Part shown: in pieces, positions 13,304-20,596 of the stretch
Position numbering within the stretch: the stretch's first letter is position 1
How the letters are laid out: each line of letters starts with the position of its first letter
DNA from: Gemmata massiliana
Lineage (GTDB): Bacteria; Planctomycetota; Planctomycetia; Gemmatales; Gemmataceae
Assembly (NCBI GenBank): GCA_000531095.1
Contig: HG799464.1
Span: forward strand, 828,339-892,338
Direction of reading: 5' to 3'
DNA: 64,000 nucleotides
Position numbers and translations under genes: made by a program
The notes under the pieces: generated by a model
The model's input: the letters and a program-made list of their open reading frames with translations, nothing else
Told to the model about the DNA's origin: nothing
Database searches by the model: none

Positions 13304-14362
13304 TTAGAACTGGCTCGCGTCGATGACCTGGCCGTCGTCGATCACGCACGCCCGCATCCAGGCGACCGGATCAACGTTGAACCGCACGAAGCGGACCGAG
13401 CCGTCACCGAACACCGCGTTCAGGCCGCCGGTGTGGGCCGAACCGAAGTACCGGCGCCACGTGTTCGTGCCGTCCGGGTTCAGCGGAATGTTAGCCGGGT
13501 CGGTGTCGTGCTTCGGCGGGAAGTGGTAGCGGATCACGCACTCGTCCCAGCCGGCGTTGTTCCAGCGCTCGTTGTCCCCGCCGTCGGCGCCCTGGCGGCT
13601 CGGGGGCAGGGCCTTTTCAGCGGCCAGCACGCTGTTCGACAGGCCGTCGGTCGCGTCGGTGATCCGGCGCTTGGCCCCTTGAGCGGACCACACGATCATC
13701 CCCTTGCGCCCCGGGTAGTCGCCGAAGTTTTCCGGGGTACGCTCGTTGCGCCGCGGGGTCATCCCGATCGGCGGGGCCGGGATATCCCCCTGGTTTTCAT
13801 GCACTTCGCCCTGGTAGAAGCCGGCGCTCCCGGCGTAATCGCACCGGCCGAACTGCCCCGAGCCGTAGCCCGTAGGGGCGCGGCGGGACGGGCAGTAGTA
13901 GGTCTTGATGAGGGCGCGGGCGACGTCGTCTTCGCCGTTGTAGTTCGCCGGGCGCCCACTGTGGATCGGGGGCAGGTCGAACTTGGCGAGCTTGTAAACG
14001 TTGTCCTGTTCGATGTACGGCAGGATCTTGAACCAGTGGCTCCAGCCGTCCGGGTGCGCGGCGTTGCAGCAGGTGGTGCCGCTCTCGTAGGCGCCGACCG
14101 GCTCGTTGTACACCATACCCGGCAACCGGGGGTCGCCGTCGTAGGGGCCTTGCGGGAAGTGGCTGTTGGCGCTCTCGAAGTTGTGGAACGCGAGCCCGAT
14201 CTGCTTCATGTTGTTGGAGCACTGCATCCGGGCCGCGGCCTCACGGACCTTCTGGACCGCGGGCAGGAGGAGCCCAATGAGAATGGCGATAATCGCAATG
14301 ACGACGAGCAACTCGATCAATGTGAATGCCGACCGAGAACCGTTCCGGTACCTATGACCCAT
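13304..14362 (-). CDS. DUF1559 prepilin-like protein, H-X9-DG type
   Basis: 352-residue prepilin-like protein. ATG 14362 is preceded by GGAG and gives a short basic leader; an upstream ATG at 14398 is less likely. The type IV prepilin signature is [20 protein letters not shown] with Glu5 after the cleavage position, followed by the amphipathic helix [19 protein letters not shown]. The DUF1559 body includes [12 protein letters not shown], and the C-terminus has [12 protein letters not shown], the H-X9-DG processing-associated motif. Such proteins are highly duplicated in planctomycetes. They are membrane anchored and processed by a prepilin peptidase; whether they form pseudopili is not known. 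Confidence 0.92.
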
Positions 14363-14546
14363 CGAAGTACTCCGAGAGTGGGCGACGGAAATGAACACCG
14401 CGAACGTGGGTTAACATTGGCAACCTCCACCGCGTTCCTCCAGGGCATCCGACCAATATTCGCACAACTCTCAACATCTACACATGGCACTTGAGCGCCG
14501 TGCTCATCGTTCCATCACATTCATCAAACACGAACACAAACGACAT

Positions 14547-14583
14547 AAAAAAATTACGCGGCACCGGAATAACCGGCACCGCG
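14547..14583 (-). terminator. Intrinsic terminator downstream of 14615-15112
   Basis: On the minus strand, an 11-base stem (CGCGGTGCCGG type with one 2x2 internal mismatch, loop TTATT, 14557-14583) is followed by TAATTTTTTT. It ends the transcript of the lipoprotein gene and separates it from the next DUF1559 gene. Confidence 0.75.
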
Positions 14584-14614
14584 TGAGGGTTAGCACCAAA
14601 GCACTATCAAGCGG

Positions 14615-15112
14615 TCAGTTCCGCCCCGGTATCCCCTGCACCGCACCCGCCGGGCGCGTGATTTTAGGGATGTTGATGGTCGGAACTTCGTTCGCTCCCG
14701 GCTTCACGCGGACGTTGACCGGTGAGTGACCGGTGTCGTACCACCCCATGAGCCGATCCATGTCCTTCGCCGCGTCCGACGTTTCGCCCTTTGCAGCGAG
14801 TTCCGCCGGGTCATACGGCCACGCGAGTATCACCTGGTACCCGCCCTCTGCCGCACCATCACCCTCTTTAAAAGTTGTGATGGCAAAAGTACCGTCTTCC
14901 TTTGTCGTCCCGTAAGGATTCTGAGGGATCTTCGGCACCATCGGTGCATCGGTCGGAATGAGAACGACCGACACCCCAGCAACGGGCTTACCGTCGTAAA
15001 TCACGCGCCCGCTCACCGGATGCGCCGTGATCGCTCGCGCTTCAGTACCCTCCCCTCCGCACCCGCTCACGAGGGCAATTGTCAACGGGACGAGGGCTAA
15101 TGCAAATCGCAT
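14615..15112 (-). CDS. Lipoprotein with carboxypeptidase-regulatory-like beta fold
   Basis: 165-residue lipoprotein with signal MRFALALVPLTIALVSGCGG (lipobox VSGC). The mature region begins HPVSGRVIYDGKPVAGVSVVLIP, and continues TKEDGTFAITTFKEGD and GGYQVILAWP, the layout of carboxypeptidase-regulatory/transthyretin-like domains that are common in planctomycete lipoproteins adjacent to DUF1559 genes. It lies 15 bases after a DUF1559 gene on the same strand, so co-transcription is likely, and it ends at an intrinsic terminator. It probably sits on the periplasmic side of a membrane; the ligand and partner are unknown. Confidence 0.82.
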   Translation of the reverse strand: MRFALALVPLTIALVSGCGGEGTEARAITAHPVSGRVIYDGKPVAGVSVVLIPTDAPMVPKIPQNPYGTTKEDGTFAITTFKEGDGAAEGGYQVILAWPYDPAELAAKGETSDAAKDMDRLMGWYDTGHSPVNVRVKPGANEVPTINIPKITRPAGAVQGIPGRN

Positions 15113-15127
15113 ATCCGGCCCTCCGAG

Positions 15128-16084
15128 TTAGTAGTCCGACGGGGGGATGTCCCCGGCCCGACGGGTGATGAACTTCACGAACTGACGGATGTCCATGTTC
15201 ACGCTGATAAAGTGAACGGACCCGTCCGCGAACACGTGGTTAGCCCCACCCATGTGGAAACTGTACACTTCGTTGCCGTTGTTGCAGTTGGTGTGGCACG
15301 GCCCCGGGGCGGTGACCCCGTCCGAAGCCAGTGCCCCGTGAACGATGTACTCGTTGTCCCGGTTCGCCCACCCGCCGTCCTGCCCGCCGCCGGCGGTCAC
15401 CATTTTCCCCTTGACCCACCGGTCCGGGCGCCCGGCGCACTCGGAAAGCATCAACGTGTTCGAGGTGCCGTCGACGATTTCGGGAATGGTCCACGTCCGG
15501 CTCACTTGCATGGCCCCCGTATAGTCCGCCACTACGTCACAAAGGCCACTACCCGCGAGAGTGCTTGCGCTCCCGTTCGAGTAAGCATTATTCGGTGCGT
15601 AGTCGCTCGGCGGGTTGTTCACCCCGCCCCCGGTGCACACGCGGGTGCCGGCGCCCGGGGTCGAGGGGCATTGGAACGCGGGGATCACGTTGGCGATCGC
15701 GGCCTGGTTCGCCGAGTTGTTCCAGTTGACCGTCCACGAGTACTGTTTGTACACGTTGTCCTGCTCGATGTACGGCAACAGGAACGGGGACCAACTGTGG
15801 ATCACGCCCGGCGTGGTGACCCCGACCCGGCGCGCGGCCGAGAGCGCAACATTGTCGGTCGCCCCGGACAGCCCGCCCGGGGGGAAGCACCCGTAAGCGG
15901 AGTGGAAGTTGTTCAGCGCCAGCCCGACCTGCTTCAAGTTGTTCTGGCACTTCATGCGCGCCGCGGACTCGCGCACCTTCTGCACCGCGGGGAGCAAGAG
16001 CCCGATCAGGATCGCGATGATCGCGATCACCACGAGCAATTCAATGAGCGTGAACCCGCGGCGCGGGCTCGCGTGAGCGGTCAT
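15128..16084 (-). CDS. DUF1559 prepilin-like protein, H-X9-DG type
   Basis: 318-residue prepilin-like protein. The leader [10 protein letters not shown] is followed by [20 protein letters not shown] and [19 protein letters not shown], the type II/IV pilin N-terminal signal and helix. The body carries [16 protein letters not shown] and [15 protein letters not shown]; the C-terminus has [12 protein letters not shown], the H-X9-DG motif. It is the second of three similar genes in this minus-strand group, between another DUF1559 gene (70 bases upstream) and a lipoprotein gene (15 bases downstream). The protein is probably anchored in the cytoplasmic membrane after peptidase processing. Confidence 0.92.
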
Positions 16085-16153
16085 GTGGAACCTCGAAGAA
16101 TATTTAAAAGAGGCCCGCCGGCCCAGCGCCGGTGGGAGACCGGTGGGTGCGGA

Positions 16154-17062
16154 CTAGTAATCGGCGTTAATCACTTGGCCGTCGTTGATGAGGCACAGGC
16201 GCATCCAGTTCGTGGCGTCGATCCCGTACCGCATGAAGCGGACCGAGCCGTCGCCCATCACCGCATTAAACCCGCCCGGGTGCGAGCTGCCGAACCGAAC
16301 CGACCAGAACGAGGCCGACCGCGCGTCCGGGTGGTTGGCGTCGGAGTCGGGAACGGCCTCACCGAACCGCACGTGGTCCTGGTCCCAGCCGGAGTTGTTC
16401 CACACCTCGTTGTCCCCGCCGGAGCTACCGAGCACGGTGGGGTGGCACTGCTTGTCGCCGGCCAGAACGGTATTCGAGAGGCCGTCACTCACGTCGGTGA
16501 GGGTGCGCGTCTGCTCGATCGGGGCGTTCGCGGCTTTGGCGGTGAAGGTGGGTTTGAACTTCCACTGCCGAACGAGCATCCCCTCGCGCCCCTCACCGTC
16601 CATGTCCCGCCCGCCGTTCCCAGCGTAGTCGGCCCGGGCCCCGTTCGAGTACACGGTCGGGGAGCGACGGGACGGGCAGTAATACGTCTTGATCGCGGTC
16701 ATCGCAACGGCCGTGTCGGTCGGGTTGTTGTAAACGTTATCTTGTTCGATGTACGGGGTGATGTGGTAGAGCCACGTCCACCCCGGGCGGTACGAGCCCG
16801 CGCTACAACACGGCGCGGTGCTCGGAGGAGTGCCACCGCCCGGGCCATCGGACCCGGCGCTCGGGAACCGGCTCTGGGCGCCGTGGTAGTTGTGGAACGC
16901 GAGCCCGATTTGCTTCATGTTGTTGGAGCAGCTCATGCGCGCGGCGGCCTCGCGCACCTTCTGAACCGCGGGCAGCAGCAGCCCGATCAAGATGGCGATG
17001 ATTGCAATAACAACCAGCAGCTCGATCAAAGTGAATCCACGTGGCGCGTTTTGTCGCGTCAT
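16154..17062 (-). CDS. DUF1559 prepilin-like protein, H-X9-DG type
   Basis: 302 residues from ATG 17062 (an in-frame ATG at 17092 would add ten residues). The prepilin signature [19 protein letters not shown], the helix [19 protein letters not shown] and HPGGFNAVMGDG at the C-terminus identify a DUF1559 H-X9-DG protein. The last residues (WMRLCLINDGQVINADY) resemble those of the 13304-14362 protein, so the two are close paralogues. It is the first gene of the group, so the main promoter should lie in the 437-base gap upstream. The role in pilus-like structures or secretion is inferred. Confidence 0.92.
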   Translation of the reverse strand: MTRQNAPRGFTLIELLVVIAIIAILIGLLLPAVQKVREAAARMSCSNNMKQIGLAFHNYHGAQSRFPSAGSDGPGGGTPPSTAPCCSAGSYRPGWTWLYHITPYIEQDNVYNNPTDTAVAMTAIKTYYCPSRRSPTVYSNGARADYAGNGGRDMDGEGREGMLVRQWKFKPTFTAKAANAPIEQTRTLTDVSDGLSNTVLAGDKQCHPTVLGSSGGDNEVWNNSGWDQDHVRFGEAVPDSDANHPDARSASFWSVRFGSSHPGGFNAVMGDGSVRFMRYGIDATNWMRLCLINDGQVINADY

Positions 17063-17499
17063 CCGAGGGAGCCTCGAGAAGATTAGGGGCAAGCGGGGCG
17101 AGGTTTGGGGAGAGGGGCGAAGGCGGGAAGAACGAGCACCAAATCAATGGCACACACGATCCCAACACACCCAATCTACCCCCGCAAAAGCGGCCGAAGT
17201 GTGCTTCACAGTTTCTTCAGTGACATTCCACATTCAAGGGCGTTGCAAAAACGACAAATCGTTTACGGAAAATGACTTACGCCACACGATGAGGAAATAG
17301 TGAAGGAATTTTGAGGACATTTGATGTGATTGGCCGGCCAATCCACTCACCAAAGAGCTTGCCCATAAACATGAGTCGTTCGCGAGCCACAACATTCATC
17401 TATCACCAAGAATTCACATGCCGCATTAACTCTCTCGATCTGATCGCGATCGAACAGCCTGGTAAGTACCACACCGTTCGATCACCGCGAAGAATCGGA
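17063..17499. other. Intergenic region between DUF1559 group and sigma factor gene
   Basis: 437 bases without a supported gene. It holds the promoter of the minus-strand DUF1559 group and the 3' end of the sigma factor transcript, which is read in the same direction. The part from about 17200 to 17460 is visibly less GC-rich. No clear -35/-10 pair, terminator or RNA gene could be assigned. Confidence 0.4.
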
Positions 17500-19725
17500 T
17501 TATTTCTCGGCCTTCACCTGCACAAAGAGTTGGTCGCCCGCCTTGAGCTGATAGTTGGTGTGCGTCACGCCGTTTTTGATCCCGGGAAGATCGATCGGCA
17601 GAACCTCCTTGCCGCGAACCAACCAGGTGCTCACGGTTCCCGTCATAATCGGAACATCGTCGATCGCGTGGATCAGTCCGTCAATGACACATTCGCTGCC
17701 GGTCGCCTTCACGTTGACGACCTTCTCCGCCGCGGTGAGCGTGCGGATGTGGACCGTGAACACCGAACCCGCGGGGGCGACACCGCCCGGCGCGACCGCG
17801 GGCACCGGTTTGTTTTTAGCCGCTCGTGCCGCCTTCGCGTCCTCGTACTCGCGGACGGCCAGTTGCCACCGCTGGTTCGCCCCGGCCCACCGCGCCTCGG
17901 CGAGGTCGGCGGCCTCTTTCGTGATCTGGAGCTGCGCGGTCGCCTGAGCGAGATCGAGCTTGGCCTGTTTTGATTCGAGTTGAGTGTTCTCGACAAGCGC
18001 CAAGAGCTGCGCGAGCGCGAGGTCGCGCACTCGGTCGTCACCGGTTTTCTTGGCGAGCGCAGCCAACTGAGACTTCAGTTCGCGCCACCGCTCGTCGTCG
18101 GTGCCTACGGGCTTCGCATCGGCACGGGCCATCTCGAACACGATGACTCCTTCCCCACCGAACTTCGTGGGGCGCTTACCGTCGATCGTGAACGCCAGCC
18201 GCAAACCGACCGCGTGCTTCGGTGCCTTGTCCTTGAGGGCCGGTTCACACAAGGCGTTCTCGTTCGGGAACCGCCCGGCCACAAGGGTGCGCAAGTTGTC
18301 GCTTGCCTTGTGGCACTGCATGCACGCGAACTCCGACGCGGTGAACTCGTAGATCCCGCGGCCCACCGGTTCGCGCGGGGCGATCAGGTCGATCGTGTTG
18401 CGCTGCATGATGGAGTCGGGCTTCTGTAGGGCGAACTCGACCGCGATCTTGTAATCACGTTGCTTCCACGCACCGGTCGCGTCCCGGTACGGCATCTTCA
18501 TGGTGCTCCCGCTGATTTCGATCACCCACGGGTCGCCCGGCTCGATCTTCAAATTCTTGCTCCCGTCCTTCACGCTCGTAACGCGCCACGACCCTTGAAG
18601 CGGATCGAGATCGGCCCCGGGCTTCGTGGGTGGGTCCGCGGGCATCATCCCGTCGTTCGTGTCGAGCAGCCGACCGATCACATCGATCCGCGCCCGCAAC
18701 CGGGCCAGTGCCTCGGGGTCCGCGTTCTGCTTGTTTGCGGCTTTTAGTTCCTCGATCAGAACTAGCAGTTCCTCTTGCGCGAGGCCCAACCGCGGGCCGC
18801 GTTGAACGGTTCCCTTCGCGGGTGGCTCGCCCGGTTTCCTGGCCACCGGAACCGGCGCGCTCGATTTCTGACTCTGGCCCGGTTGCGTGCCGGCGCCGTC
18901 GCCACGGCCCGAGCCGGAAGCCGCGAACGCGCCGAAGCCGAGCGCGCAGGCCGCGAACACGACCGCCGTCATTGCTTTGAGCTTGAAGAGCGCCATACTG
19001 GAAACCACCCCTTCGGTAAGAGCCGCGACGGGCGCCGAAACGCCCGGCCCGGCTCCGATCGCGAGATCGATTGTTGATTGAATTGTCGCGGCCGGCGCAC
19101 TTTCTGGTGCCGCACACACGGCCGCCAGTCCGCCCGCGGGTAACACAAGCCCGACGCGCCTGAGCCGCGTGGCGAGCAACTCGCGCGCACGAGAGAGTCG
19201 GCCGGAGAGCGTCCCCTCGCTCCACCCCAAGCGCTCCGCGGCCTCTTTTCGGCTCAGCCCCTGAAGGTCACACGCGACAACAGCCGAACGGTAGATTTCC
19301 GGCAGTCGGCACACGATGCGGTGAACCACTTCTGCGAGATCGGAGTCGGGTCGGGCCGGTTCAGTCGTGGCAACGTCTTCGAGCGGACACTCGCGTGTGG
19401 CGCGCCGAGTACGCACCGCCCGAGCCCTGAGCGAAACTCGGCGCGCCACGCCGAACAACCACGACGCGACCGCTTCACGCGGCCAAATGTCTCCCGCTCG
19501 GCGCGCGAGAACCAGGAACGTGGCCTGGAGCGCGTCTTCTGCGTCCTGTCGGTGGTGCAAAATGCGTTGACAGGACGCGAAAACCAGCCCCGCGTACCGG
19601 TGAACCAGCACGGCAAATGCGCTCTGGTCACCCGCGAGGAACGCCGTGAGCAACGCCCCGTCGGAAGAAGCACCGGGGGCCGTCGATAATCGATTCAACT
19701 TGGTGAGGATCGCGTTCACCGCCAC
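17500..19725 (-). CDS. ECF sigma factor with membrane segment and C-terminal sensor-like region
   Basis: 741-residue fusion starting at GTG 19725. Residues about 20-85 form sigma region 2 (AFLAGDQSAFAVLVHRYAG, HHRQDAEDALQATFLVLAR) and about 150-200 form region 4 (LPEIYRSAVVACDLQGLS, RLGWSEGTLSGRLSRARE). After an Ala/Pro-rich linker, a hydrophobic segment at about 245-270 (AMTAVVFAACALGFGAFAA) should span the membrane. The C-terminal half contains a TIGR03067-like LQGSWRVTSVKDG region, a single CMQCH motif (residues 468-472), a long helical stretch, and an SLBB-like end (PGIKNGVTHTNYQLKAGDQL). Membrane-tethered ECF factors are known in planctomycetes, usually without a separate anti-sigma factor, and none is visible here. 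The CXXCH could bind heme c if this part is outside the cytoplasm. Confidence 0.85.
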   Translation of the reverse strand: MAVNAILTKLNRLSTAPGASSDGALLTAFLAGDQSAFAVLVHRYAGLVFASCQRILHHRQDAEDALQATFLVLARRAGDIWPREAVASWLFGVARRVSLRARAVRTRRATRECPLEDVATTEPARPDSDLAEVVHRIVCRLPEIYRSAVVACDLQGLSRKEAAERLGWSEGTLSGRLSRARELLATRLRRVGLVLPAGGLAAVCAAPESAPAATIQSTIDLAIGAGPGVSAPVAALTEGVVSSMALFKLKAMTAVVFAACALGFGAFAASGSGRGDGAGTQPGQSQKSSAPVPVARKPGEPPAKGTVQRGPRLGLAQEELLVLIEELKAANKQNADPEALARLRARIDVIGRLLDTNDGMMPADPPTKPGADLDPLQGSWRVTSVKDGSKNLKIEPGDPWVIEISGSTMKMPYRDATGAWKQRDYKIAVEFALQKPDSIMQRNTIDLIAPREPVGRGIYEFTASEFACMQCHKASDNLRTLVAGRFPNENALCEPALKDKAPKHAVGLRLAFTIDGKRPTKFGGEGVIVFEMARADAKPVGTDDERWRELKSQLAALAKKTGDDRVRDLALAQLLALVENTQLESKQAKLDLAQATAQLQITKEAADLAEARWAGANQRWQLAVREYEDAKAARAAKNKPVPAVAPGGVAPAGSVFTVHIRTLTAAEKVVNVKATGSECVIDGLIHAIDDVPIMTGTVSTWLVRGKEVLPIDLPGIKNGVTHTNYQLKAGDQLFVQVKAEK

Positions 19726-20596
19726 TCCTGGGTTCGCGTCTCTAACCTGAGATTGCCCGCCTCACTGCGGGCGCGTACAGAATTTCACGAACCGGATTTT
19801 TGTTCCCCGCCCACCCAGCACACCAGCGGTGGCTCGAAATGGCTTCCTCTACCCTCGCGGGGCGAGGCTAACATTTGCTAACCTTTTGCCCCGGCGCGTA
19901 GCAGAATCACTCAAAAATCGGAGCGAATGGCTACAAGTTAGTGGATATTCACACCTCGAACGGCCTTGCGTGAGGGGCGCGCAACTAACATTCGCACACA
20001 ATTCGTCCCCGTTTCCTTCGTCCCTCTGACGCGGTTGCTGCCGACGTGCCTGCGCGCGAACCACCAGCATCACTCAATTTTAGCCGATTAGTGTACTAAA
20101 ATCCATTAAATTTACCCACGCCCGTCGACTTTCTGCTTCCAGTGCAAAGTGAGGCCCCCCGAACTCGCCACTTCAGCGCAACAACCGCGCGTGAAAAGCA
20201 GAACATCGAACAGGAACTGGACGTTTCCGTTGCAGAGCTACTTTGCTCTCGCCATAATGAGCCTCAAGCCTCGCACGGTCACGGTCGACCGCGCGGGATT
20301 ATCCCGGTCGCGGATGTACCGCCGCCGGTCTACCACGGACGGCTCGCGCTCCGTTTTACTTAAATAAAGACCCCGGTTCGCCCGTCGCACCTCGGACCCG
20401 CGCTGGAGGCGGGACTTGACACCGACGAACGCGGCCCGCGATCGCTCGCACCGCGACTGTCCGATCATGTGGGGTTCGGGACTGGATTCGTGACTCGTGA
20501 CGCGCACCCGACTGCCCGGTCGGGCGCCGCGTGTGGTATTTGTCCCGGCCCCGCTGCCGAGCTTCGACGGGCCACCGGTTTGGAGTGGCCCTCATC
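19726..20596. other. Long non-coding stretch before RNase Y
   Basis: About 870 bases in which I see no supportable gene. Short open frames exist but have no family similarity or good ribosome binding sites. Two loosely similar segments, near 19851-19890 and 19960-20005, share GGGGCG and CTAACATT words and may be decayed dispersed repeats. The promoter of rny and that of the minus-strand sigma factor gene must lie here. Confidence 0.35.

Follow-up and report, generated by a model that had tools for sequence, protein, structure and literature searches.

Organization of the sigma factor locus

The window analysed here, the whole stretch of 64,000 nucleotides, encodes on its reverse strand a sigma factor with a long C-terminal extension (Table 1). 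Regions 2 and 4 of the sigma domain both pass their curated Pfam cut-offs, on which basis the sequence is classed as an ECF sigma-70 factor, and neither region 3 nor region 1.1 is among the 10 Pfam families listed for the protein at E values up to 10. The extension holds one strongly hydrophobic segment with a mean Kyte-Doolittle value of 1.99, and all its other 19-residue stretches score 1.15 or less. By hydropathy, the protein qualifies as a membrane-tethered ECF sigma factor, with one predicted transmembrane segment after the sigma domain and the long extension beyond it. The first-pass annotation had described precisely this reading frame as a membrane-tethered sigma factor carrying CMQCH in its extension, and this description is confirmed. 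The present analysis adds a third invariant cysteine (C493), a C-terminal SLBB-like domain, and the placement of the motif within an inserted loop.

The annotated start codon may need revision. A second GTG, two codons downstream (positions 19717-19719, reverse strand), is common to all seven orthologues described below, and it may be the real start of the gene.

Table 1. Features of the sigma factor gene and its product, with positions in the window.
Feature	Position	Strand	Residues	Basis or remark
Tethered ECF sigma factor gene	17500..19725	-	741 aa	Stop included; annotated GTG start at 19725
Upstream element GTACGCGCC-N12-GGCAAT	19752..19778	-		Conserved upstream of the sigma start
Sigma-70 region 2	19405..19608	-	40-107	Pfam PF04542, 32.1 bits (cut-off 24)
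Sigma-70 region 4	19174..19329	-	133-184	Pfam PF08281 (Sigma70_r4_2), 47.9 bits (cut-off 25.7)
Predicted single transmembrane segment	18919..18975	-	~251-269	Hydropathy; FKLK just before
TIGR03067-like, lipocalin-like domain	18124..18612	-	372-534	NCBIfam, AF2 model, VIA-align
M411, only invariant Met of the extension	18493..18495	-	411	Orthologue alignment; alternative candidate for distal ligand
Inserted loop	18211..18339	-	463-505	Alignment; model strands 81-91 and 136-142
CMQCH, candidate c-heme attachment site	18310..18324	-	468-472	C, C, and H invariant in 7/7 orthologues
C493, third invariant cysteine	18247..18249	-	493	Candidate for distal ligand of heme or for fourth ligand of zinc
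Charged, Ala-rich linker	17806..18108	-	~540-640	Read by eye from the orthologue alignment
SLBB-like C-terminal domain	17503..17769	-	653-741	Homologue profile against Wza chains

Ten neighbouring genes were scanned, and none was recognised as anti-sigma-like, which agrees with the first-pass proposal that this sigma factor could act without an anti-sigma factor. The neighbours encode RNase Y, three DUF1559 pseudopilin-like proteins, a branching-enzyme-like protein, and smaller proteins, two of which match nothing. The three DUF1559 proteins carry N-methylation motifs; their genes and one for a small lipoprotein-like protein follow the sigma gene on its downstream side (13304-17092, reverse strand). 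Genes similar to these also adjoin the sigma gene in two other genomes (G001 and G003), and they are not all the same copies.

Upstream of the sigma start, the element GTACGCGCC-N12-GGCAAT occurs with constant spacing in six of the seven orthologues. In the remaining orthologue (G008), the gene begins close to the edge of its contig, and the element is absent from the 145 nucleotides upstream. With one mismatch, the same element also precedes the decayed relic of the gene in genome G016. It is a candidate autoregulatory promoter or operator. The genome holds one exact copy, and a genome search with the element revealed no regulon for this sigma factor. A shortened form of the element, when one mismatch was allowed, gave 20 genome sites compared to 5 for a reversed control, and these sites were not taken as a regulon.

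Domains of the extension

The first domain of the extension aligns with TIGR03067, a family of Planctomycetes, at an E value of 3.5e-5 and with a score (24.0 bits) that misses the curated cut-off of 40.15; the alignment points to a distant relative of this family. The two share the LQGxW start, the GIYE strand, and the RPTxF end. Unlike TIGR03067, the window domain contains an insert of about 43 residues that holds three cysteines, and it is missing the single cysteine that canonical copies carry before RPTxF. We know of no ligand for the canonical TIGR03067 domains.

An AlphaFold2 model of the window domain forms a barrel (pLDDT 75.6), wherein the loop is the least confident part and falls below a pLDDT of 50 at domain residues 106-120. 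The corresponding domain of the G011 orthologue yields a better barrel (pLDDT 83.8, pTM 0.78). In that model, CXXCH is predicted to terminate a short helix situated between barrel strands, and the third cysteine would fall just before another helix. The top VIA-align match of both models is 4qrl, a Bacteroides lipocalin-like protein (Z 9.8, 93 aligned residues, rmsd 2.8 for the window model and 2.7 for the G011 model). A Foldseek search of the PDB with the window model returned nothing at an E value of 0.001 or better (best 0.024), and its rows include many lipocalins alongside plainly unrelated folds. We therefore describe the predicted fold only as lipocalin-like, on the strength of the VIA-align Z of 9.8 in both models. 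Lipocalin-like chains come first for both models where a Cache fold is concerned, a ranking that still leaves room for other folds, and the DUF3365/Tll0287 profile is absent from the Pfam matches of the extension at E values up to 10. When the lipocalin-like domain was compared by sequence with the PDB, NMD3 and other matches no better than chance were all that emerged, with E values of 0.07 or worse. Nitrophorins and a heme-bound plant lipocalin are among the fold matches, and nothing was drawn from them because a shared fold does not show function.

The linker that follows is probably a coiled coil, as judged by eye from the alignment. It matches the CHAD domain in Pfam below the cut-off (E 0.013 and 0.0013), and these matches were rejected as charge-rich coiled-coil similarity.

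At the C-terminus, a profile built from 23 homologues matches PDB chains of Wza (E 2.6e-6). SLBB_2 is matched by 17 of these 23 homologues at E values up to 1 (best 2.7e-6), and one homologue sits within a Poly_export protein (PF02563, E 3e-25); the single sequence of the window protein itself has no SLBB match in Pfam. SLBB modules of this type are features of exported proteins, and this homology is therefore the best evidence that the C-terminus lies outside the cytoplasm. Together with the single transmembrane segment and the signal-like start (by eye) of an extension homologue that carries no sigma domain, it leads us to infer that the extension is extracytoplasmic. Charges on the two sides of the transmembrane segment are not decisive for its orientation. 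The first-pass annotation had named a cytoplasmic C-terminus as fatal to its own reading; no such placement was found, and the predicted topology favours the outside. A different combination of such parts is seen in a sigma-like protein of genome G090 (L053, 592-2763), which has a transmembrane segment, an SLBB-like domain, and a PPIC-type rotamase-like domain whose match falls just under the cut-off (E 1e-5).

Conservation of the CXXCH loop

The motif is spelled CMQCH in three orthologues and CQSCH, CISCH, CLQCH, or CLKCH in the others, and so the CXXCH that the first-pass annotation wished to see conserved is invariant in every sigma-bearing orthologue (7/7, from a single genus, with at least three of the genomes metagenome-assembled). 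Only C468, C471, H472, C493, and P495 are invariant within the loop, whose spacing can be written as C-X2-C-H-X(about 19-23)-C. Outside the motif, the loop is almost randomised, with identities between the window protein and four divergent orthologues of 7/33, 7/34, 6/31, and 4/32. The codons for C468, H472, and C493 vary synonymously (TGC/TGT and CAC/CAT) while the loop around them drifts, which argues that these amino acids are under selection. Five of the seven orthologues have no further cysteine in the extension, and the window protein and the L033 orthologue each have one more.

The genome offers a second way to judge the motif. We counted 74 proteins with a sigma domain in the fetched loci, keeping the longest copy per gene, and 68 of these are tethered; to be kept, a protein had to exceed a hydropathy of 1.6 and to have at least 60 residues of extension. 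The loci were drawn from 87 matches in the genome, less the short or non-tethered ones (open frames under about 280 aa) and a few fragments. Among the 68 tethered extensions, CXXCH occurs once, in the window protein, where residue shuffles give an expectation of 0.03. Even CXXC is absent from the remaining 67 extensions, which together comprise 30,212 residues and 160 cysteines. The CXXCH of the window protein is more than chance.

Distribution and origin of the loop

Orthologues that combine the sigma domain with the extension number seven and occur in 7 of the 19 genomes of the genus. None was found outside the genus among the 95 genomes of the family and 102 of the order that were searched, and a contig scan of GTDB r220 gave three loci, which are the copies in G008, G009, and G011. 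In six genomes (that of the window, G001, G003, G009, G018, and G011), the sigma gene is divergent from or near rny. Genome G016 has only a relic at this place (L162, 883-984), wherein 34 residues of a decayed sigma gene can be read beside rny before the sequence goes out of frame and is gone.

Two close homologues of the extension have no sigma domain, and both are without the CXXCH loop. One of them (L041/L083) adjoins the sigma gene in G011. The other (L052/L144) occupies the same rny-adjacent place in G006, where no sigma match was found in 16.5 kb. The sensor part is also found as a protein in its own right, at this place or close to it. Compared to these two homologues and to canonical TIGR03067, the loop is extra sequence that separates the GIYE strand from the strand preceding RPTxF. 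It accompanies the sigma fusion in 7/7 proteins and is present in 0/2 of the close homologues without sigma, which is a small sample. The best reading of these alignments is that the lipocalin-like domain acquired the loop in this lineage. Several other tethered sigma factors of the genome carry copies of TIGR03067, all of them without CXXCH. The genome also has a 1350-aa sigma-like frame whose extension holds four TIGR03067 matches (L130, G000:C5:93100-98300).

A candidate heme c sensor

CXXCH is the motif to which heme c could be attached, and the genome encodes machinery suited to this task. A frame of 1376 aa matches both ResB and Cytochrom_C_asm and carries the WWD motif as WGRFWGWD, features by which it is identified as a fused CcsBA-type system II cytochrome c synthetase. 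When purified, CcsBA can add heme to a peptide as short as a 9-mer, and it requires both thiols and the histidine but not helix 1 (PMC8112865). The residues that CcsBA requires are the same residues that are invariant in the loop, which we count in favour of heme attachment.

We therefore propose the following model. A cytoplasmic ECF sigma domain would be held at the membrane by a single transmembrane segment, and the extracytoplasmic part would comprise the lipocalin-like relative of TIGR03067, the probable coiled coil, and the SLBB-like domain. CcsBA would link heme covalently to C468 and C471. H472 would serve as the proximal ligand, and the distal one would be C493 or, with lower likelihood, M411. 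Redox state, NO, or another small ligand would change the oxidation or ligation of the heme and thereby the sensor domain, with the barrel and the SLBB domain reading the state of the heme. This would free or unmask the sigma domain. Cleavage within the long flexible linker and the membrane is the likeliest route to this, which is the weakest step of the proposal. A separate anti-sigma factor would not be needed.

We place the probability of this whole one-protein arrangement at about 0.5. That heme c is attached to the loop is a somewhat favoured proposition, with better than even odds. That an extracytoplasmic lipocalin-like sensor with Cys/His-ligated heme c reports redox state or NO to its own sigma domain is a more tentative claim, for which we would offer a little under even odds, and it would imply that no kinase, response regulator, or anti-sigma factor takes part. 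The heme could also sense NO or CO instead of redox state. The first-pass idea of a redox-sensing heme has therefore gained an invariant CXXCH, a C-terminus predicted to lie outside, and an encoded CcsBA; it has given ground in that three invariant cysteines and one histidine suit zinc as well, and in that a heme could serve to sense NO or CO.

Among the candidate distal ligands, M411 is methionine in 7/7 homologues with CXXCH and in 1/7 of those without, and it is replaced in the other 6/7. It was ranked below C493 because one homologue without CXXCH keeps the methionine, and its position, which probably faces the barrel core (by eye), was also counted against this role.

The main rival to heme is zinc. 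Three cysteines and one histidine fit a zinc site equally well, and C468, C471, H472, and C493 might bind zinc or another metal, for structure or for sensing, with no heme present. In that case, the signal that the sigma factor reads beyond the cytoplasm would be metal or thiol-oxidising stress, in the manner of CorE but in another compartment. All four potential ligands are invariant, whereas under the heme reading C493 needs a separate explanation, and metal-responsive ECF sigma factors with C-terminal extensions, CorE and CorE2, are already known (PMC8103513). Nevertheless, we consider a metal site unlikely, although it deserves to be taken seriously. An exact CXXCH with variable X residues is the substrate of the CcsBA encoded here, and an exported CXXCH would meet this enzyme. 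Adjacent cysteine and histidine residues are unusual as joint zinc ligands, which also counts against this reading. Furthermore, a loop profile matched 31 PDB chains at E values up to 10, of which 28 are c-heme proteins by title and the others are a zinc finger, a thioredoxin, and a carcinoembryonic antigen, a search that is biased by the presence of CXXCH in the profile itself.

Perhaps the cysteines act as a thiol/disulfide switch that senses oxidants without metal or heme, through a C468-C471 disulfide or by exchange with C493. Three invariant cysteines in an extension with almost no other would suit such a switch, which has no need of a histidine. H472 is nevertheless invariant in 7/7 orthologues while its codon varies synonymously, and we regard a switch of this kind as improbable.

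A further proposal is that the hydrophobic segment is an internal signal peptide, with G-F-G-A-F-A before the cut, so that signal peptidase would separate the heme domain from sigma. An A-x-A-like pattern does end the segment in 7/7 orthologues (by eye), and two homologues that consist only of the extension exist. However, CXXCH is found where sigma is fused and is absent in these two close homologues, and the transmembrane segments of the other tethered sigma factors in the genome differ in sequence, which together make this proposal more doubtful still. Least probable of all, with a very slim chance, is that this is an ordinary tethered sigma paralogue whose loop merely stabilises the fold and may bind heme without any signal: the 67 other tethered ECF sigma factors lack such a motif and several close relatives are without the gene or have it in a decayed form, but strict selection falls on precisely those residues that would bind heme or metal, in a loop that otherwise drifts.

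Comparison with known systems

Planctomycetes can possess dozens of tethered sigma factors, and we counted 68 in this genome. The three cysteines and the histidine provide a chemically specific handle that predicts a cofactor, and they could tie one tethered sigma factor to a signal. In general design, the window protein resembles other tethered ECF sigma factors of the Gemmataceae and Planctomycetes, with an N-terminal ECF domain, one transmembrane segment after region 4, and a long C-terminal extension; it is set apart from the others of its own genome by the motif. It is already known that ECF sigma factors of planctomycetes carry added domains. In Tuwongella, ECF sigma factors have been recovered from Triton- and SDS-soluble fractions (PMC8567305). 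We did not find a sigma factor with a c-heme site in the literature searched, which covered few subscription journals and none of the main papers on ECF classification.

ECF41, ECF42, and CorE are known examples of sigma factors regulated through a C-terminal extension (PMC8103513). As in these proteins, regulation of the window protein is expected from a fused C-terminal extension with no anti-sigma factor. Unlike it, their extensions are not described, in the part of that source available to us, as crossing the membrane or carrying heme c. The SLBB domain is homologous to that of Wza-type polysaccharide export proteins, whereas here it ends a sigma factor.

The closest parallel to the proposed heme site is sCache_heme (DUF3365/Tll0287; GSU0582 and GSU0935), in which a short CXXCH helix and loop lie between Cache beta strands. 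That work also reports Cys/His axial ligation of the Tll0287 heme and NO-binding behaviour in a signalling member (PMC12889525), and the term "sigma factor" is absent from its main text. In both cases, the latter by prediction for the window protein, a CXXCH helix or loop interrupts the beta strands of a sensor scaffold outside the cytoplasm, and by analogy the ligation in Tll0287 resembles the pair that H472 and C493 might form. The scaffold here is instead lipocalin-like and the output is a sigma factor. If heme is indeed bound, the window protein would add to sCache_heme a second, independent example of a small c-heme loop gained by a sensor domain, this time on another scaffold and with the c-heme sensor wired directly to a sigma factor.
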